From Syntrophomonadaceae bacterium (GTDB lineage: Bacteria > Bacillota_D > Dethiobacteria > DTU022 > UBA8154), in contig SKMY01000291.1 in NCBI GenBank assembly GCA_007120815.1, positions 1 to 7,974 of the forward strand: a stretch of 7,974 bases of DNA. Reading direction: 5' to 3'. This document shows, one piece after another, positions 1-7,974 of this stretch. The position numbers and the translations under genes are program-made. The first letter of the stretch is position 1, and every line of letters begins with the position of its first letter. The notes beneath the pieces were generated by a model. The model did no database searches. It worked only from the letters and a program-made list of their open reading frames with translations, and was not told the origin of the DNA.

Positions 1-1
1 G

Positions 2-1927
2 CCTTTAATCAACCCATCCGATTACTTAATATTTAACTTAGAGACTGCTTTCGCAGAAAATCCGGAACCGGTTTTTGATGGGAAAAAATATTTAAAATGT
101 GATCATTCGGATCGAACACTTGATTATTTGAAAAAACTGAATGTTAATGCTGTAACCCTACATAATAATCATGTATTGGATTACGGCAAGGATGTATTTG
201 AAAATATGCTCAAGCGATTAGAGTTGGAAAACATTGACTACTTTGGAGCAGGGCGTAACCTGATGGAAGCAAACAAACCTTATAAAATAACATTTAATGG
301 GAACGAAAATGATCTAAATGTATATTTTATCCATGGTATGAGAGCCGGACAAAGATATAAACGCTATGGCTATTTTGTGTCGAGAAAAGAAGCCGGTGTA
401 ACCAGGACGAATGAGACAAGAATGAAAAAGCAAATAAGGAGAATTAAAAAGAATGAGCCCAATGCAATGATCATTGCTGTACCCCATTGGCAAGGTCAAG
501 ATTACAAATGGGCAGAGGAAAATCCAAAAATCAGACAAATGTGTCATGATTTAATTGATACAGGAGCCGACTATGTAATCGCACATGGACCTCACATGAT
601 TAACGGTGTAGAAAGCTACAGGGAAGGTGTTATCGTTTATTCACTTGGGAACTTTGTATTTAATACCGGCGGTATGTTTAAGGAAAGAAATGGTCATCCC
701 TATGGGTTAATCGCAAAATTGGAAATCGAAGAGAATCATGGCACATGGAAGAAGAGGCTTAAATTAATCCCTATTCATATAGATAATAAAAAAAATAAAT
801 ATATGACGAGACCAATTAATAAAATGGAAAGACAGGAACTAGAGTCCATTCTTCGAGGAAAAGCCAGTAGTATAGGAGGAAATTTCAACTCAAGGATTTT
901 AGCGGATGAAAAGTATGGATACAGTATAGCGGTGGATGCATTAAATGAAAACAAGAAAACTGAGATTCCTGTGATAAAGAAAAAGTCAATGAGGAAAGAA
1001 GAGCTGGTATATAAAGTCATAATCGGAGGAGATACAAGCGTAACAGACTTTTTTGTTAAAAGCAGAAAGAAAGTAAAAGAAAGACTTGATAAGAGACCGG
1101 AATCATTTTTTGATGAGATTCGTCAAATCACCCATGGGAGCAATGAATTCATCATTAACCTGGAGACCGTGCTTGAAAAAGAACCGAAGCGATTGATGGA
1201 AGATAAAAAGTATCCAAATTGGGATGATCCCGATAGAACAATCAAAGCACTTAAAAAGTCAGGTGTTACAGCAACTTCCTTAGCGAATAATCATCTTATG
1301 GATTTTGGAGAACAGGTCATGTTAAGGACACTTGAAAGGCTGAAAGAAAACAACTTCGAGTTGTTTGGAGCAGGAAAAACAGTGGAAGATGCCATGAAGC
1401 CGAAAGTGATAAATATAACACATGAAGGAGAAGCGCTTAACATCTATATGATAGCAATGATGGAACCATCACCTTCTTTCAGAAAGAAGTATGAAAGGGA
1501 TTTTAATTATTTTGCAAAGGAAGAGAGCAGCGGGATTAATAAACTAGACCGGGAACTGCTAAAAAAACAAATCCATAAGATAAAAGCCAGCGACCCCAAT
1601 GCGTATATTATAGCAATTCCCCATTGGCAAGGCGTTGATTATAAATGGGCATCTGAAAAATCCTGGGTGCAACAGAAGTCTAGAGAAATGATTGATATGG
1701 GAGTTAATATGATCATTGGACATGGTCCTCATAGTATCAATAATATAGAGAAGTACAAGGGCCATACAATAGTCTACTCCATAGGCAATTTAGTTTTCAC
1801 ATCTCCGGGGCGGTATAACCAATTTGATATAACACCATACAGTTTGTTGGCAGAGTTGGGCGTAGTGAAGAAAGAATCAGGGTTGGGTATCGAATTGAAA
1901 CTGTATCCGATTATTACTGATAACCGC
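2..1927 (+). repeat. Diverged intragenic tandem duplication of the CapA domain
   Basis: Two protein-level copies lie within one reading frame: the first from the window edge to about base 790, the second from about 1013 to 1927. Matching blocks occur in the same order with similar spacing: NLET, (H/A)NNH followed by a D(Y/F)G turn, PHWQG.DYKWA, HGPH, and an (V/I)YS(L/I)GN.VF strand. The copies are clearly related but far from identical, so the duplication is old rather than recent. The start of copy 1 is missing: by the spacing in copy 2, its GGD motif should lie about 30 codons upstream of the window. Confidence 0.85.
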
Positions 1928-3400
1928 CTTACTGATTTTCAGATAAGGCCTGTAAATGAGACTGAAGCCAAAGAGCTTGTTTATGAACTGAACAAAAGAG
2001 GGATGTTTGGCGAGCAGTATTCTGTTTATAAAGATGAATCAAACAACCTGATACTGAATACAAACATAAAAGTACCGGATACAAACGTAAAAAGCATTAA
2101 GAAAGCCGAAAGCAGAGAAGTCAATTTATATAACGAGAAATATCTGGAAGTTTTTGGAGTCAAGTCACTGGCAAATTATCTCTTTGAAAAGGAAGTACTT
2201 GCCTGGGGATTGAGAACTAAAAGAATAACGAGTTCAAAATTTTATTGCTATGATGAAAATGGAAAAACAATATTATTTAGCTGGGCATATGCACCCACAA
2301 CAATTGATCAGGCAATAAAAGAATTTTGTAGAGTAAAATACCTTAGCAAGAAGTTATTTGAGGCAAATAATGTTCCCGTCGCAGAAGGACGGGTGTTCTC
2401 AAAAAAAAGCAGAGAAAAAATGGCTAAATATGTTAACAAATCCAAATATCCATTGGTATTAAAGCCTGCCGTAGGAACAGGCGGAGCCGGTATAACAACT
2501 GGCATCGAGACAGAAGAGCAGTTGGATGAAGCCTTGAATGCTCTTGTAAAAACTGAAAAACCGAACTCTAAAAACAATAGTTATTGTATTTTAGAACGAT
2601 ATATTATGGGAGATGACATACGGTTTGTCGTTGTGCGGGATAAAGTAGTAGCAGCTGCAAGAAGAAAAAGAGGTTTTGTAATCGGTAATGGGAAAGATAC
2701 CATTGAAGATCTCATTAGAGCTGAAAACAGACAGAGAGGAAAAAACCCAAGCCTTAAAAAGAAAATCAAGATTGACGATGCTTTGTACTACACTTTGAAA
2801 GAGCAAAATTATGACGTTCAATCCATTCCTGCAAAAGGACAGGAAGTGAAGATCAGCACAGTAGACAGCTTGAGCCGGGGAGGGATCAGCGAAGCAATCT
2901 TAGACCAAGTGCACCCTTCGATACTGAAAAAAGCAGTGGATGCTGTTGCTGCAATACCCGGATTGGAATATGGCGGAGTAGACTTCATGGTGGAGGATTT
3001 CACTAAACATATCGATGATCAGAACTCAGCTGTGCTTGAAATAAATACTTCACCGGCACTCATGTCTTCTCATTTTCCTGTTTATGGAGAACCGGTAGAG
3101 GCTGCGAGCTATATTGTGGAGATGTATCTGGACAAATTCAAACTCACAAAAAACAGCAAAAAGTTAACTGATCTAAATCTCAAAATAATTGTGGAATTGG
3201 ATATGAATGAGGAGTATATCAAGTGGCTGAGAGAACGGATAAGCGAGCTTGGAGTTAATTGTAATTATAATGCAGGAACAGATAAAATTGAGTTGACGGT
3301 TAACGGTGAATTAGGACCTGTTTCAGCACTTGCTTCGATGCTGTCTATCGGACCCAAAAATTCAGTGGTTAAATCTGTTATGGTTGACCACATCATTTAG
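2..3400 (+). CDS. Tandem CapA-domain / ATP-grasp ligase fusion protein (5' end outside window)
   Basis: The frame is open from the window's first complete codon, so the gene starts upstream; residues are numbered from base 2 (1132 visible). Two CapA/PgsA-type metallophosphoesterase-like domains come first. Copy 1 (to about residue 260) shows NLET at 12, HNNH at 54, PHWQG at 161, HGPH at 195 and YSLGNFVF at 213. Copy 2 (about 338-642) shows GGDTS at 342, NLET at 386, ANNH at 428, PHWQG at 540, HGPH at 574 and YSIGNLVF at 592. Residues about 715-1045 form a cyanophycin-synthetase-like ATP-grasp with Lys821, a glycine-rich loop at 825-830, Asp994 and the metal ligands Glu1013/Asn1015 in EINTSP. 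Residues 1060-1132 resemble a degenerate acylphosphatase. CapA proteins act in poly-gamma-glutamate capsule export or anchoring; ATP-grasp enzymes join a carboxylate to an amine through an acyl phosphate. Expected role: making and handling an amino-acid polymer or peptide. The substrate is unknown. Any signal peptide or anchor lies outside the window. Confidence 0.9.
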   Translation, partial: PLINPSDYLIFNLETAFAENPEPVFDGKKYLKCDHSDRTLDYLKKLNVNAVTLHNNHVLDYGKDVFENMLKRLELENIDYFGAGRNLMEANKPYKITFNGNENDLNVYFIHGMRAGQRYKRYGYFVSRKEAGVTRTNETRMKKQIRRIKKNEPNAMIIAVPHWQGQDYKWAEENPKIRQMCHDLIDTGADYVIAHGPHMINGVESYREGVIVYSLGNFVFNTGGMFKERNGHPYGLIAKLEIEENHGTWKKRLKLIPIHIDNKKNKYMTRPINKMERQELESILRGKASSIGGNFNSRILADEKYGYSIAVDALNENKKTEIPVIKKKSMRKEELVYKVIIGGDTSVTDFFVKSRKKVKERLDKRPESFFDEIRQITHGSNEFIINLETVLEKEPKRLMEDKKYPNWDDPDRTIKALKKSGVTATSLANNHLMDFGEQVMLRTLERLKENNFELFGAGKTVEDAMKPKVINITHEGEALNIYMIAMMEPSPSFRKKYERDFNYFAKEESSGINKLDRELLKKQIHKIKASDPNAYIIAIPHWQGVDYKWASEKSWVQQKSREMIDMGVNMIIGHGPHSINNIEKYKGHTIVYSIGNLVFTSPGRYNQFDITPYSLLAELGVVKKESGLGIELKLYPIITDNRLTDFQIRPVNETEAKELVYELNKRGMFGEQYSVYKDESNNLILNTNIKVPDTNVKSIKKAESREVNLYNEKYLEVFGVKSLANYLFEKEVLAWGLRTKRITSSKFYCYDENGKTILFSWAYAPTTIDQAIKEFCRVKYLSKKLFEANNVPVAEGRVFSKKSREKMAKYVNKSKYPLVLKPAVGTGGAGITTGIETEEQLDEALNALVKTEKPNSKNNSYCILERYIMGDDIRFVVVRDKVVAAARRKRGFVIGNGKDTIEDLIRAENRQRGKNPSLKKKIKIDDALYYTLKEQNYDVQSIPAKGQEVKISTVDSLSRGGISEAILDQVHPSILKKAVDAVAAIPGLEYGGVDFMVEDFTKHIDDQNSAVLEINTSPALMSSHFPVYGEPVEAASYIVEMYLDKFKLTKNSKKLTDLNLKIIVELDMNEEYIKWLRERISELGVNCNYNAGTDKIELTVNGELGPVSALASMLSIGPKNSVVKSVMVDHII

Positions 3401-3473
3401 AGATTAAAAAATAAGGACAAAAGGATATTGTTCAACTCGGCACAAAAATTCATCGTAATTTCAGTATAAACTC

Positions 3474-3482
3474 AAAGGAGGT
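3474..3482 (+). promoter_or_regulatory. Strong ribosome binding site deciding a TTG start
   Basis: AAAGGAGGT is a near-perfect Shine-Dalgarno sequence, separated by 6 nt (3483-3488) from the TTG at 3489. It fixes the start of the second gene at this TTG. No convincing promoter or terminator is visible in the 88 bp between the two large genes, so gene 2 is probably read from the same transcript as gene 1. Confidence 0.85.
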
Positions 3483-3488
3483 AAGAAC

Positions 3489-6400
3489 TTGGAAGAGGAA
3501 AGAGATCCAAAGCTTATGCGGATAGAACCATTGCTTAGGATAAATAGAGATCAGATTGCAAATACCTACGAAAACCAAAGATATCAGCCGACTCGAAACA
3601 AGTTGATAAAAGAATACTCAAAACTGGGGTACAATGCTTATACAAGCTTACCATATACAATTGTTGAGACCGGTGAAGATGAGTTGTATTTCAGTTATTC
3701 ATTAGGGATGTTCCAAAGCCTGGCAGGAGTCGAAATAACGAATAACAAAAGGGACACAGTTGGATTTTTGAAAGAAGCAGGCGTTTCTGTTGCAGAAGGC
3801 CATGCATTCAGCATTGAGGAGCGGGACCAAGCGAAAAGCTATGCAATGCGGATGAAAGATGCAGTGATTAAACCAATGTATGGCCGTAAGGGAGACGGAA
3901 TAACAGTAGGGATAAATTCAGAGGATGAATTTGACAATGCATGGGAAAAAGCGATAGCCACTTCTTCAAAAGGATTACTTGTCGAGAAACGATTTGACAA
4001 AGGGATTGAAGCACGGTTTTTGGTAGTAGGTGGCAAATGCGTTGCAATTTTTGGAAGAATTCCACCCAACATTGTTGGAGATGGAGAAAAAACCATACTG
4101 GAACTAATTGAAGAAAAGAATGTTGGACGAAGGAAAAATCCTCATACGAAAACCAGACCAATCCTTATAGATAAACAAAGAGAGATGATTATTGCAGAGC
4201 AGGGGTTCTTTTTGGATGACATTCCGAGTCATAATGAGAGAATTATCATCGACTGGAAAGCTGGAATTTCAACCGGAGCTGATTCGATAAATATTACCGA
4301 ACATGTTCATTCCAGTTTCAAGAATGTAGCTGTAAGAGCCGTCACCGCGATTCCTGGTTTGGACACAGGCGGAGTTGATATTTTAGCAGAAAATTACTTT
4401 GTGCAAGCAGATCCATCAAACCATATAGTAATTGAAATTAACAAAGCTCCTGTTTTAGGAGGGCATCACTACCCTGTATATGGAAAGATTAAAAACGCAG
4501 GCAAGATTTTGGCAGAATATAACATGAAAGCATTCAATGCATACAAAAGGAAAATAAACGATACGGTTGAAGATACAAGTAGCGGAATTGAAATCAGCGG
4601 GGAATCACACATCAGATCAAGTGAGTTTAATAATTTGAAGGGTAGCGATTACCCGGGAATGACGAACGAAGAACTGATCCGTTGCAGCCTGTTTGATCAG
4701 GGCGTTATGTTTACAGAGATCTATTCCCATTTTCTTATTAAGACCGAAAATGGCAGCAGACTGATTAAAGGAACAACAACAGACAATACACATTATATTT
4801 CAGCGCAAATGATGGGTAAGCGTTATTGGCAAAGAAGAGCTTTGAAAAAAGCTGGTTTGCCAATAACAACGGGCGCTTATTTCCGGTTTGATCAAAAAGA
4901 AAGCGCAAGAAATTACTCATTAACACTCAGTTCACCAAGAATGTTTTCGGACCTTGGTGTTGAAAATACAAGAGTAGAAAAAGAAAAGCGGTTTAATGAT
5001 CAATGGAGAATAATTAGGAGAAAATTAAAGAAGAAATCAAAATCACAGGGGAACTTGGAACATAATAAAAATATTCTTATTGATGATTATTTTACCGGTG
5101 ATAAAGTCAGCTTTTTTATTGTAGGCGGAAAATGCAAGGCAGCCATTAAAAGAGAGCCTCTTACCATAGAAGGAAATGGTATAAATTCGATTAAGGAACT
5201 AATCGAAAATAAAAATGCACATAGAGCAACTCATCCATTATACCGAAAGCATCCAATTATAATCGAAGATGATCTGAGTAAAAAGATAAGGGAAAGTGGA
5301 TACTCTATCAATACGATTTTGAGTAAAGGTGAAGGAGTAATATTACGCGATAGTGTCGACATTATGAAAGGCGGAGAAACTCATGATGTTTTCAATCTGG
5401 TTCATCCTTCCTTGAAGGGAACTGCAGAAAAAGCATCAAAAATTCTTAACGGTTTAGATATTGTTGTGGTTGATATTGTTACAAAAAACATATCAGTTGA
5501 AGCGAATGAAAAGAATCATGTTTTTGAAAACATAGTTGTTAATCCGCCACTCGCCGAATTCAGTTTTCCTTTACACGGAAACAAATCAGATCTTGCTTCA
5601 ATCATTGTAGATTACGTCTGCAACTCCAGACCCAATAGGCTATATGAAGAGATTGATGATACCGATATCGATGTGAAGAGCAACAAGAAGGTGCAAAAGG
5701 ATTATGCTATCGCAAAGTACGTTAAAAATATAAAGTATGATGACATTCCTGAGATCGTTATAAACCGGGCGAAACTTTTAGTTCTCGATAATATAGGGCT
5801 GATTGTTGAAGCGAGAGCGAAAAGAAAACTGTCAAATGAATTACTGAACATTGTACAGTCTGTATCCGGATTTCAAAATCTTGCTACTGCGGAAACTGAT
5901 ATTAAATATTCATCACAAACCGCAGGTCTGGTTAATGGATACTATGCACAATGGCACGATTTTAATGATGGCAATCGATTGGCCCATAAACAGGGAGGGT
6001 CAATACATCCCGGAAGAGTAATTGTACCGGCTGCGTTAGCTGTCGCAGAACAGATGGAGATGAACGGTAAAGAATTCTTAACACTCGTTGTATTGGGATA
6101 TGACACAGCCATGAAAATCAGAGGGAAGGGCTCCAAGGACCTTAGTGATTATTATGCGGCTGCTGCCATTGCTGCAAGAGCATATGGTGGAAATGAAGAT
6201 GAAATTTCCAGAGCAATGGGTCTTGCAGGTTATATGGCGATCTCACAGAAGGGAACATTCAGAAAAGGCAGCAAGCTTAATTCTTTTAAAAATGGAATGA
6301 GAGTGAAAACAGGGATTGAAGCAGCTCTGATGGCATTAAGTGGAGTAGAGGGTCCATACATCATTAATGTGGAGAAGAATAATGCAAGGTTCAAAACAGC

Positions 6401-7013
6401 ATATAAAGATATGAATTTTGAGGTAATGAATGTCTATTTGAAGCCATATCCGACATGCAGAATGACACATTCAGCAATTGAAGCAGCCATTAAGCTAAAG
6501 AGTGAATATGGTTTTAGTCACAATGAAATCGAAAGAGTCAATATTAAACAGTTAAATAAAGGGATGTATACTGCCAAAAAAAGACCTGAAAAAGGCCTTG
6601 GACACAAAAGCGCACAGTTCAATTTGTATTATTGTGTCGCCCAAGCCTTGGTATCAGGGGAATTGACATTAGACCAATTCACTAAATCCAAACTTTCAAA
6701 TCCGGAAGTGTTTATGATGGCGGACAGAATAAATGTGATAAAAGAACTGGAGTATATGAAAGGGTATCCCCTTAAAACGAGAACGTCAAGTGTGGAAGTA
6801 CTGCTGAAGGATGGCAGCGAATTGTTTTGTAAAGTGGATTTGCCAAAAGGTGCACCTGAAAACTTTTTAAGTGTTGAAGAGGTTCAGGAAAAGTTCTTGA
6901 GGAATACAGTCGAGGCTTTGGGTGAGCGTTCATCAAAAGAATTACTTCGTGAAGTTATGAATTTGGATATGACAAAGAATATAAACAATGATATAGTAAC
7001 AAAATTCGGATAG
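3489..7013 (+). CDS. ATP-grasp / degenerate ATP-grasp / MmgE-PrpD fusion protein
   Basis: This 1174-residue three-part protein starts on TTG. Residues about 30-350 are a cyanophycin-synthetase-like ATP-grasp module: Lys128 in VIKP, glycine-rich loop GRKGDG at 132-137, Arg176, Asp297 in GGVD, and metal ligands Glu316/Asn318 in IEIN. Residues about 395-710 repeat the module and keep an EGNG...IKELIE..N block, but lack the lysine/glycine loop (SLTLSSPRMF near 477) and carry Val683 where the metal-binding Glu is expected, so this copy is probably not catalytic. Residues about 737-1160 are an MmgE/PrpD domain, a family that includes 2-methylcitrate dehydratase, cis-aconitate decarboxylase and iminodisuccinate epimerase. 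It shows DFND at 824-827, HPG at 840-842 and YPTC..TH at 987-994. No signal peptide or membrane segment is evident, so the protein is probably cytoplasmic. With gene 1 and the racemase remnant it looks like one biosynthetic operon; the substrate cannot be read from sequence. Confidence 0.92.
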   Translation: MEEERDPKLMRIEPLLRINRDQIANTYENQRYQPTRNKLIKEYSKLGYNAYTSLPYTIVETGEDELYFSYSLGMFQSLAGVEITNNKRDTVGFLKEAGVSVAEGHAFSIEERDQAKSYAMRMKDAVIKPMYGRKGDGITVGINSEDEFDNAWEKAIATSSKGLLVEKRFDKGIEARFLVVGGKCVAIFGRIPPNIVGDGEKTILELIEEKNVGRRKNPHTKTRPILIDKQREMIIAEQGFFLDDIPSHNERIIIDWKAGISTGADSINITEHVHSSFKNVAVRAVTAIPGLDTGGVDILAENYFVQADPSNHIVIEINKAPVLGGHHYPVYGKIKNAGKILAEYNMKAFNAYKRKINDTVEDTSSGIEISGESHIRSSEFNNLKGSDYPGMTNEELIRCSLFDQGVMFTEIYSHFLIKTENGSRLIKGTTTDNTHYISAQMMGKRYWQRRALKKAGLPITTGAYFRFDQKESARNYSLTLSSPRMFSDLGVENTRVEKEKRFNDQWRIIRRKLKKKSKSQGNLEHNKNILIDDYFTGDKVSFFIVGGKCKAAIKREPLTIEGNGINSIKELIENKNAHRATHPLYRKHPIIIEDDLSKKIRESGYSINTILSKGEGVILRDSVDIMKGGETHDVFNLVHPSLKGTAEKASKILNGLDIVVVDIVTKNISVEANEKNHVFENIVVNPPLAEFSFPLHGNKSDLASIIVDYVCNSRPNRLYEEIDDTDIDVKSNKKVQKDYAIAKYVKNIKYDDIPEIVINRAKLLVLDNIGLIVEARAKRKLSNELLNIVQSVSGFQNLATAETDIKYSSQTAGLVNGYYAQWHDFNDGNRLAHKQGGSIHPGRVIVPAALAVAEQMEMNGKEFLTLVVLGYDTAMKIRGKGSKDLSDYYAAAAIAARAYGGNEDEISRAMGLAGYMAISQKGTFRKGSKLNSFKNGMRVKTGIEAALMALSGVEGPYIINVEKNNARFKTAYKDMNFEVMNVYLKPYPTCRMTHSAIEAAIKLKSEYGFSHNEIERVNIKQLNKGMYTAKKRPEKGLGHKSAQFNLYYCVAQALVSGELTLDQFTKSKLSNPEVFMMADRINVIKELEYMKGYPLKTRTSSVEVLLKDGSELFCKVDLPKGAPENFLSVEEVQEKFLRNTVEALGERSSKELLREVMNLDMTKNINNDIVTKFG

Positions 7014-7130
7014 TGCTATCAAAGAAATGTTTGGAGCATATGAAAGTGGAAGAGTGATTGAATGTGCAACATACAATGAATGCTATACATGGGAAAGGTT
7101 ATACAGATAAAGTTAATACCCGGAATATTA

Positions 7131-7136
7131 AGGAGG
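7131..7136 (+). promoter_or_regulatory. Ribosome binding site of the racemase remnant
   Basis: AGGAGG lies 8 nt upstream of the TTG at 7145, immediately before the conserved racemase N-terminus (IGIIGGMGP). It supports TTG 7145 over the in-frame ATG at 7058, whose extra 29 residues show no family similarity. The arrangement (TTG start, strong Shine-Dalgarno) matches that of the preceding gene. Confidence 0.75.
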
Positions 7137-7144
7137 CAACTGCG

Positions 7145-7357
7145 TTGGATAAAATCGGAATAATTGGCGGAATGGGACCAATGGCGACGGCCAAAGTATT
7201 TATGAAGCTGGTGGAATCTGTGGATGCATTAAACGATCTTGACCATCCTGAAATTTTGAGTTCGGAGCCTCTGTGGGTAATTACGTCAGCCCCCATTCAG
7301 CCCTCGGCCCCCTATGGACTCATTGGCTACTTAGATCAGAGGAATAAGCGTATCTAA
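7145..7357 (+). pseudogene. Aspartate/glutamate racemase family protein, N-terminal fragment
   Basis: From the TTG at 7145 the translation gives an IGIIGGMGPMAT motif followed by a helix and LDHPEIL. This is the typical N-terminus of the aspartate/glutamate/hydantoin racemase superfamily, cofactor-independent enzymes using two catalytic cysteines, normally about 230 residues long. Family likeness stops at about 7258-7270. The remaining codons, to the TAA at 7355-7357, read into unrelated sequence rich in Pro, Ser and Trp, leaving only about 70 residues. Both catalytic cysteines, expected further downstream, are missing, so the product should be inactive. It sits 131 bp behind gene 2 on the same strand and probably belonged to that operon, where it could have supplied a D-amino acid. 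The break is abrupt, as expected for an insertion or rearrangement rather than point decay. Confidence 0.75.
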
Positions 7358-7476
7358 TACTACTAGGTTCCCCTTGCGGGAATAGTGGTCTGTACGATGA
7401 AGAAGATGCGGCCCAAGGGTTTATGAAAGGTATCCCTCTATGAGGATGGCATAGAGCAGTGAAGCTGTACGGTTTA
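7345..7476 (+). ncRNA. Candidate structured RNA or mobile-element end (unassigned)
   Basis: This segment shows no convincing protein but has visible structure. TTCCC (7368-7372) and GGGAA (7378-7382) form a hairpin with a 5-nt loop. ATCCCTC (7432-7438) pairs with GAGGAT (7442-7447) with one bulged C. CTGTACG occurs twice, at 7390-7396 and 7465-7471. It lies exactly between the racemase break and the end of a minus-strand membrane-protein fragment. Its pattern (hairpin, GAAGATGC, AAGGGTTTATGA, GAGCAGTGAAGC) reminds me of structured RNAs carried by IscB/IS605-type elements such as HEARO, but I cannot verify that match and no IscB or TnpB gene is present. Strand is assumed from that resemblance. 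Confidence 0.3.
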
Positions 7477-7827
7477 GACAATTTCCCTTCTTTTATCTAT
7501 CCAGGCGAGGCTCCAGGCCACCACCAATCCAAAGATGCTGGCTCCGACCACATTGGAGAAGGCCGTTTTCAGCAGGATGGGGAAGGTGCCCTCCACCCGG
7601 TAGAGGTGGTTGATAGCATAGATAACGAACCACGATGCTACACCGAAGAGCCACTCCTTGAAAAGATACAGGCGGCTGCTAAACGCAGGCAAGAGAAAAG
7701 CGAACACGATTCCCAAAACACCCGTGAAAATTAGCTGGCCAAGAAGGCCGATGGCATGGTCCCCCACGGTTCGCACCTCAGAAGTACCTAAGATGATTAT
7801 GGAAGCCCATTGCCAGAAGGGAACTTC
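7474..7827 (-). pseudogene. Membrane protein, C-terminal fragment
   Basis: On the minus strand the frame is open from 7827 to a TAA at 7474-7476, giving 117 residues. Three hydrophobic helices are visible: around LIFTGVLGIVFAFLL, EWLFGVASWFVIYAI and VVGASIFGLVVAWSL. The end is a basic WIDKRREIV tail. The look is of a small multi-pass inner-membrane protein, possibly YqhR-like and of the kind seen in Clostridia; that family call is a weak recollection. GTG at 7776 could start it, but no ribosome binding site precedes it. Coding-like sequence (QWASIIILG) continues upstream to a stop at 7828-7830, so the N-terminal part is more likely missing. Local GC is much higher than in the two large genes (36 of 60 bases at 7501-7560), pointing to a different origin. 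Function unknown. Confidence 0.55.
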
Positions 7828-7839
7828 TTAAGGGTGTAT

Positions 7840-7974
7840 GGCCTGCCTATCTCATTGAGGGAACCCCTTTGCCACAATGGCCTTGGAAGCAGGAGTATCC
7901 TTAAAGACGGTTCAGGAAATCTTGGGTCACAGTAACATCAGTACAACAGGTGATACCTATTCCCATGTGACTGA
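7840..7974 (+). pseudogene. Tyrosine recombinase/integrase, frameshifted C-terminal fragment running off the window
   Basis: From 7868 to the window edge the translation contains FATMALEAGVSLKTVQEILG followed by HSN, a T-T-G-D-T spacer and YSHVT. This is the C-terminal catalytic part of phage-type tyrosine recombinases: the LGH histidine and the nucleophile tyrosine (7958-7960) are both present. The upstream HxLRHT box, which should carry a catalytic His and Arg, is damaged. A GLPI-SLRE-P reading at 7840-7867 suggests that a few codons were lost and that a one-base frameshift separates it from the intact part. No further integrase can be recognised upstream, where minus-strand membrane-protein sequence begins by 7827. 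This is a remnant, not a working integrase. Its stop lies beyond the window. Confidence 0.75.

Follow-up and report, generated by a model that had tools for sequence, protein, structure and literature searches.

Domain architecture of the two open reading frames

The window analyzed here is the whole 7,974-nucleotide (nt) stretch of contig SKMY01000291.1 from a Syntrophomonadaceae bacterium. It carries two long open reading frames (ORFs) on the plus strand, ORF1 (2-3400, 1132 amino acids (aa)) and ORF2 (3489-7013, 1174 aa), followed by the start of a gene of the Asp/Glu racemase family. ORF1 is open at its 5' end and encodes, in order, two CapA domains, an ATP-grasp ligase and a tail with a predicted acylphosphatase fold, while ORF2 encodes a live ATP-grasp ligase, a dead ligase and an MmgE/PrpD domain (Table 1). 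An earlier interpretation made without database searches (the sequence-only reading) had described two giant genes on one strand that together hold three cyanophycin-synthetase-like ATP-grasp modules, a pair of CapA domains and an MmgE/PrpD domain, and this inventory was confirmed by matches to Pfam and NCBIfam models, on the basis of which the domain counts are real and far beyond chance. The order CapA-CapA-ligase in ORF1 was also borne out, but the tail had been overlooked. Both ORF2 and the racemase gene start with TTG behind a good ribosome-binding site (AAAGGAGG, 7 nt upstream of the ORF2 start, and AAGGAGG, respectively), and in a site scan of the window nothing resembling a terminator was found in the ORF1-ORF2 gap or ahead of the racemase gene. 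We infer that ORF1, ORF2 and the racemase gene form one operon.

The Pfam profile PGA_cap (CapA) matched two stretches of ORF1 (318.5 bits, E 4.1e-95), placing the protein in this family. The first domain lacks the first 33 profile positions, the window starting inside the gene, and keeps the E of NLE and the NNH..D, PHWQ and GPH motifs. The second was compared with the epimerase MslH at eight catalytic or metal residues (D11, E44, N87, H88, D91, H259, H261 and H295), with N87, H88, D91 and H295 placed by direct alignment and the remaining residues by motif and spacing; seven of the eight are present and the second metal His (H261) is a Gln. Against the MslH model NF038314, ORF1 scored 95.7 bits, below the 700-bit cut-off. 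The CapA domains, which the sequence-only reading had associated with poly-gamma-glutamate systems, are not in themselves a sign of export in this case. Because they are fused to ATP-dependent ligases, and because the related proteins P0002, P0005, P0006 and P0008 begin directly at the CapA domain, such CapA-ligase fusions should be cytosolic.

Cyanophycin-synthetase models (NCBIfam) matched once in ORF1 and twice in ORF2. Three active-site features, namely the Lys that binds ATP, the Gly loop and the Glu-x-Asn metal motif, are kept in the ORF1 ligase (motifs VLKPAVGTGGAGI and VLEINTSP) and in the first ORF2 module, and comparison with the cyanophycin synthetase CphA (PDB 7wac) gave E 1.6e-31 for ORF1 and E 2.2e-33 for ORF2. 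The second ORF2 module is without all three features, in agreement with its earlier designation as a pseudoligase. The ORF1 tail had no match in Pfam; it was modeled from an alignment that included five acylphosphatase-like relatives selected by hand (mean predicted local distance difference test score (pLDDT) 79.1), and the twelve best PDB matches of the model were all named acylphosphatases (best E 6.6e-6), which predicts an acylphosphatase fold. An Ile occupies what we take to be the position of the catalytic Arg of acylphosphatases.

In ORF2, both MmgE/PrpD Pfam domains, N- and C-terminal, were detected (E 5.5e-36 and 1.7e-32), assigning this part to the superfamily, and the score against the 2-methylcitrate dehydratase model TIGR02330 was 44.5 bits, below its 458-bit cut-off. 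Equivalents of D91, H102, K266 and C271 are kept. In all three fused proteins that we aligned (that of the window and P0010 and P0011, see below) the Y146/H151 loop is deleted and K200 is replaced, while most of 23 other aligned PrpD-region sequences, among which L125 and L128 look like wrong frames, have a loop at this site. Of the two bases of the iminodisuccinate epimerase type, compared through the PrpD alignment and not with the epimerase itself, His102 is therefore kept and the Tyr146 loop is absent. The roles of these residues are given in two studies (PMC7347537, PMC12290011), the second of which describes characterized MmgE/PrpD enzymes as using 1,4-dicarboxylates, two of four being a C2 epimerase and a C2 isomerase. 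Judged by its residues, enolate chemistry on a dicarboxylate is plausible for the ORF2 domain, whereas ordinary two-base epimerization is not supported. The structure predicted for this domain was of low quality (mean pLDDT 50.5) and was set aside.

The sequence-only reading had also recognized a racemase N-terminus, and 17 of 40 residues are indeed identical to Asp/Glu racemases, but the gene is broken. Since the match stops at ~7270 and the guanine-cytosine (GC) content shifts there (0.378 in 1-7013, 0.401 in 7014-7270 and 0.503 in 7271-7974), the gene is truncated inside the window, not by the window edge, and has been cut by an insertion, a rearrangement or a chimeric join. Enzymes of this family (PF01177) use two catalytic Cys; a Pfam scan of the short racemase ORF gave no match. 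The higher-GC stretch 7270-7974 has no clear gene apart from a fragment of a tyrosine recombinase (PF00589) in the last 32 codons of the window (7877-7972), and a minus-strand ORF at 7474-7776 had no Pfam, NCBIfam or plasmid match. Neither Rfam families nor defence-system models matched in the window.

Table 1. Coordinates of domains and expression signals in the window
Feature	Position	Strand	Basis or remark
CapA (PGA_cap) domain 1	2..664	+	residues 1-221 = profile 34-254 (Pfam)
CapA domain 2	989..1801	+	subfamily that marks the cluster type; profile, alignment, motif positions
ATP-grasp ligase module of ORF1	2327..3130	+	NCBIfam, active-site motifs intact
Acylphosphatase-fold C-terminal domain of ORF1 (predicted, degenerate)	3170..3397	+	structure prediction
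Ribosome-binding site AAAGGAGG	3474..3481	+	precedes ORF2 TTG start at 3489
ATP-grasp ligase module 1 of ORF2	3666..4514	+	NCBIfam, active-site motifs intact
ATP-grasp module 2 of ORF2, pseudoligase	4806..5618	+	Lys, Gly loop, Glu/Asn metal ligands lost
MmgE/PrpD domain of ORF2	5706..6962	+	Pfam, alignment of catalytic positions
Ribosome-binding site AAGGAGG	7130..7136	+	precedes racemase TTG start at 7145
5' part of Asp/Glu racemase-family gene, ~42 codons	7145..7270	+	similarity match, GC shift

Related proteins and recurring gene clusters

A search with the second CapA region returned eight proteins of 705-865 aa in which a CapA domain of this subfamily (36-44% identity) is joined to TupA-like ligases, CphA-like ligases, an acylphosphatase domain or, once, a Mur ligase. 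The Mur-type fusion, P0008, possibly provides a link to CapB/PgsB. In P0009, the CapA domain has lost catalytic residues (SS for ET in NLET; NNY..V for NNH..D) and the motifs of the fused ligase are intact.

Genomes were scanned with a CapA-ligase alignment; at least 596 stretches matched, and 79 loci were kept and ranked by their resemblance to ORF1 as a whole (CapA and ligase). Fourteen of these (L004-L016 and L018) and eight further loci make up a set of 22, and the other 65 (L017 and L019-L082), which carry other CapA genes, served as the control; the boundary was set from the ranking and by visual judgment, with L018 included and L017 excluded. The comparison is to be read with the knowledge that the domain references were derived partly from the same 22 loci, that these are not independent (L011 and L013 come from one genome, as do L146 and L147), and that the control loci are shorter (median 16617 versus 19901 bases), CapA being re-found in 60 of the 65. 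None of the control loci had a CapA fused to ATP-grasp (17/22 loci), a separate CphA-like ligase gene (15/22, with at least three such genes in 12/22), a TupA-like ligase, fused or separate (12/22), a GH127-like gene (7/22), an enolase-fold domain fused to a ligase (6/22) or an Asp/Glu racemase (4/22), and GT2 was present in 10 of the 22 loci versus three of the 65. Among the 22, a fused acylphosphatase domain was found in 15 and a LytR-CpsA-Psr gene in one. PrpD was absent from both groups (0/22 and 0/65). The seven new loci L142-L148 were found by a query with the second CapA domain only and are free of the ranking bias, but their taxa had been chosen for a known positive; separate ligase genes were present in six of these seven.

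At E 1e-40 or better, the CapA subfamily was detected in 4 of 299 genomes (two already known) and in 1 of 151 (already known), and at E 1e-30 or better in 5 of 22 (one already known); among the sampled genomes, it marks a rare and patchy cluster type. The top-ranked loci of the CapA-ligase scan, L004-L016, come from 12 genomes, eight of which (Halomonas, Haloechinothrix, Phytoactinopolyspora, Natribacillus, Shouchella, two Alkalicoccus and Amphibacillus) belong to taxa that we take to be salt- or alkali-adapted.

The racemase lies directly beside an enolase-fold-ligase-acylphosphatase gene in L006, L007, L146 and L148, and the closest sequence matches of the L007 enolase-fold domain are in the mandelate racemase/muconate lactonizing group, which includes dipeptide epimerases (1wue, E 1.2e-8; 3rit, 1.9e-7; 1jpm, 4.9e-6). 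In a tree of the ligases, that of ORF1 falls into a five-row clade (support 95/96) with an 875-aa ligase of L006, an 879-aa ligase of L007 and two others from L007; the 875-aa and 879-aa proteins are of the enolase-fold-ligase-acylphosphatase kind adjoining the racemase. Some loci also have neighbors typical of surface polymers, including GT2/GT92, a polysaccharide flippase (L009) and ABC genes, and in the Amphibacillus locus a LytR-CpsA-Psr gene and two peptidoglycan hydrolases. The GH127-like gene, which possibly serves polymer turnover, lies beside or near the CapA-ligase gene at L004:9191-9973, L103:8534-9634, L008:11769-13538, L009:15484-17187, L010:10737-12434, L015:9136-10911 and L142:5061-6764.

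Nine tandem ligase pairs, those noticed by eye, were classified by motif. A live first and a dead second copy were found in six of them (the window, L006, L007, L012, L146 and L147, the second copy of L007 being partial at 237 aa), and two live copies in P0010, P0011 and L001. Because dead second ligases recur beside a live one in five other loci, the dead copy of ORF2 is likely a retained part rather than a product of decay. The ORF2 modules fall into a 16-row clade with CapA-fused ligases (98/96), in which the dead copy is placed beside the dead Amphibacillus copy (90/93), and the pairs of L007, L146 and L147 lie within a clade of their own (100/98), so that live-dead pairs probably have more than one origin, although long branches leave this uncertain. 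Descent of the dead ligase from one ancient duplicate found no support, as the second copies are scattered over the tree (5 changes, against a mean of 5.6 in shuffles), in a test that long branches limit. Proteins of ~390 aa with two short, weak ligase-like stretches adjoin ligase genes at L007:5914-7086, L146:5650-6834 and L148:6297-7466. The live pair of L001:11986-16968 (Agrobacterium plasmid pAt, CP048491.1) belongs to a 1660-aa gene that joins a YheC/D-type ATP-grasp to two live CphA-like ligases and adjoins a type I secretion system, a large BapA-like protein and an alpha/beta hydrolase.

When the whole of ORF2 was compared with 5.8 billion proteins, only ORF2 itself was found among the best 7999 candidates scored. 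A search with the PrpD part, restricted to proteins of 0.55-1.75 times the ORF2 length and scoring the best 7993 candidates, gave at least two ligase-ligase-PrpD proteins, P0010 (1253 aa, 42%) and P0011 (1387 aa, 41%), the latter also with an acylphosphatase domain. The first genome scan with ORF2 gave no relative. No fusion of the ORF2 type was detected in 199 genomes of the order of a Tissierellia metagenome-assembled genome (29 had some match to the whole of ORF2), or, using the ligase part and scoring at most two candidates per genome, in 391 genomes of the class (58 matched at E 1e-30 or better). An 884-codon open frame from the 199-genome scan was discarded as a fusion candidate since its DNA reads as a 447-codon PrpD alone. 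PrpD matches were present in 5 of the 12 genomes behind the CapA loci (Pfam family) and in 7 of 50 genomes (fused-PrpD alignment), all in open frames of 314-628 aa and none of ligase-fusion length. Translated searches returned single domains or pairs from plasmids (625 and 117 records) and phages (17 and 11 records), with no record covering 80% of either ORF. DNA searches of plasmids gave no match and scans of viral contigs no relative; one weak viral relative came from the CapA alignment.

Proposed function and alternatives

We favor, with moderate confidence, the interpretation that the window is the 3' part of a gene run for a non-ribosomal, stereochemically edited acidic peptide, which most likely forms the peptide portion of a teichuronopeptide-related surface peptide-glycan. 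The two live ATP-grasp ligases, one per ORF, would each use ATP to activate a carboxylate as its acyl phosphate and join this to an amino group, and the dead ORF2 ligase would be a binding or docking partner of its live neighbor. Assuming that the chain grows at its C-terminal end, the residue just added there would be the target of the CapA domains, which would use a calcineurin-type metal site and plausibly serve as an epimerase like MslH. The racemase would supply D-Asp or D-Glu, and the PrpD domain would transform a 1,4-dicarboxylate unit, for instance an aspartyl or succinyl-like residue, by way of an enolate. The window itself has only ligase, CapA, PrpD and racemase parts, and attachment to a glycan is suggested by its relatives, since TupA-like and CphA-like ligases, glycosyltransferases, a flippase, ABC genes, LytR-CpsA-Psr and hydrolases occur there, pointing to a peptide-bearing surface polymer. 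The sequence-only reading had proposed a ribosome-independent assembly with acidic or modified residues, possibly surface-attached, and had suggested looking for the same domain order and neighborhood elsewhere. Related loci with CapA, ligases and, in four of 22, a racemase support an amide-forming assembly of this kind with acidic or D-residues. The domain order of ORF2 is found again in P0010 and P0011, but the PrpD part found no counterpart in the 22 loci.

Several observations weigh against this interpretation. As none of the 22 loci has PrpD, the window is the one place where that domain is linked to the core CapA-ligase system; furthermore, its second base is absent, so it may not be an epimerase and may not be catalytic, and the ligases of P0010 and P0011 do not group with those of ORF2 in the tree. 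The second CapA domain has a substitution at one of the MslH metal ligands, and ligase substrates are not readable from sequence. No separate CphA-like ligase lies nearby in seven of the 22 loci (L004, L103, L013, L014, L015, L018 and L147), and a glycosyltransferase, a transporter and a TupA-like ligase are absent from the window, which starts inside ORF1. The racemase gene is broken, and the locus may thus be decaying. Finally, promoter-like sites before ORF2 (3384-3412) and before the racemase gene (6969-6997) speak against a single transcript; as the whole scan gave 9 such sites versus 12.4 in shuffles, i.e., no excess, the promoter and terminator scan does not decide this point.

The main rival, which we regard as unlikely although deserving of attention, is that the product is a small soluble peptide, an osmolyte or specialized metabolite comparable to N-acetylglutaminylglutamine amide or glutathione, and not a surface polymer. 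Both ORFs match the models of N-acetylglutaminylglutamine synthetase (TIGR03103; 112.4 and 183.5 bits, cut-off 569) and GshAB below the cut-offs, several ligases in series fit a defined oligopeptide, L001 and L002 adjoin type I secretion genes, and the eight presumed halophile or alkaliphile genomes noted above would suit an osmolyte. The GT2 genes in 10 of the 22 loci, and the flippase, LytR-CpsA-Psr, GH127-like and TupA-like genes near ligases in some of them, argue instead for the polymer. It is improbable that the locus is a decaying remnant in which the dead ligase, the degenerate acylphosphatase tail and the truncated racemase reflect lost function: these features and the integrase fragment at the right end would fit, but each ORF runs without a stop for more than 1100 codons, dead second ligases recur elsewhere, and the junction at ~7270 may be an assembly or strain-specific event. 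Least probable of all is that the ligases, together with an epimerase of the CapA type, modify a ribosomal precursor in the manner of graspetides or MslH lasso peptides, since the likeness of ORF1 to MslH is countered by the lack of a recognizable precursor among ORFs of at least 30 aa in 6900-7974 (the sole stretch listed; short ORFs of the relatives were not searched), by ligases of the CphA/GshB type (not compared with graspetide families), and by racemase, PrpD and enolase partners that would better suit free amino acids or non-ribosomal chains.

Returning to the acidic surface peptide, CapA, the enolase-fold domain, PrpD and the racemase would seem to be stereochemistry modules that replace or complement one another around related ligases, because the racemase adjoins the enolase-ligase gene and the ORF1 ligase shares a clade with those ligases. 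A broader proposal, which we put forward only tentatively, is that the window represents an undescribed class of non-ribosomal systems, in which live and dead ATP-grasp ligases paired within a single chain and interchangeable stereochemistry modules would make a mixed D/L acidic peptide on a surface glycan, the dead ligase being a conserved working part, perhaps a chain-binding subunit. The class would be spread patchily over Bacillota, Actinomycetota and Pseudomonadota and be frequent in salt- or alkali-adapted species. If true, it would provide a genetic handle on acidic wall polymer synthesis in alkaliphiles and halophiles, represent a modular route to D/L acidic peptides free of nonribosomal peptide synthetases, in which inactive ATP-grasp copies persist next to active ones, and broaden CapA and MmgE/PrpD chemistry to include substrates bound to ligases.

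Comparison with known systems

In line with the sequence-only reading, no description of a named system with the ORF1 or ORF2 fusion order, or of the cluster type, was seen in the open PubMed Central literature, subscription papers being mostly outside this scope, and the patchy gene-cluster family is apparently undescribed. A 2009 survey of ATP-grasp amidoligases may include predictions that are related.

The ligase modules of both ORFs are of the same family as that of CphA, but neither ORF has the Mur-ligase half (Pfam), and their scores against the cyanophycin synthetase model TIGR02068 (192.7 bits for ORF1 and 294 for ORF2) are far below the 850-bit cut-off. CapA domains are shared with PgsBCA/CapBCA, from which ORF1 differs in that its CapA is fused to an ATP-dependent ligase and so is probably cytosolic; the Mur-type ligase PgsB/CapB is absent from the window, which starts inside ORF1. 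MslH, a calcium-dependent peptide epimerase of a lasso peptide for which eight residues were tested (PMC10406935), resembles the second CapA domain in seven of them, the differences being the Gln at the second metal His and the low model score. Both Pfam domains and the four kept residues connect ORF2 with iminodisuccinate epimerase, 2-methylcitrate dehydratase and cis-aconitate decarboxylase, from which the fused proteins are set apart by the missing loop and the replaced K200.

The closest parallel in cluster content is the teichuronopeptide of alkaliphilic Bacillus, a polyglutamate-polyglucuronate for which tupA and, unclearly, a polyglutamate-synthase cluster are named (PMC8153356). In the capsule of Campylobacter, amide formation on glucuronate has been reported for a TupA-like ATP-grasp domain (PMC11800379). 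The window differs in having no PF14305 match, its start lying inside ORF1, and in having PrpD and a racemase start, whereas 12 of the 22 related loci have TupA-like ligases fused to the same CapA subfamily or beside CphA-like ligases.

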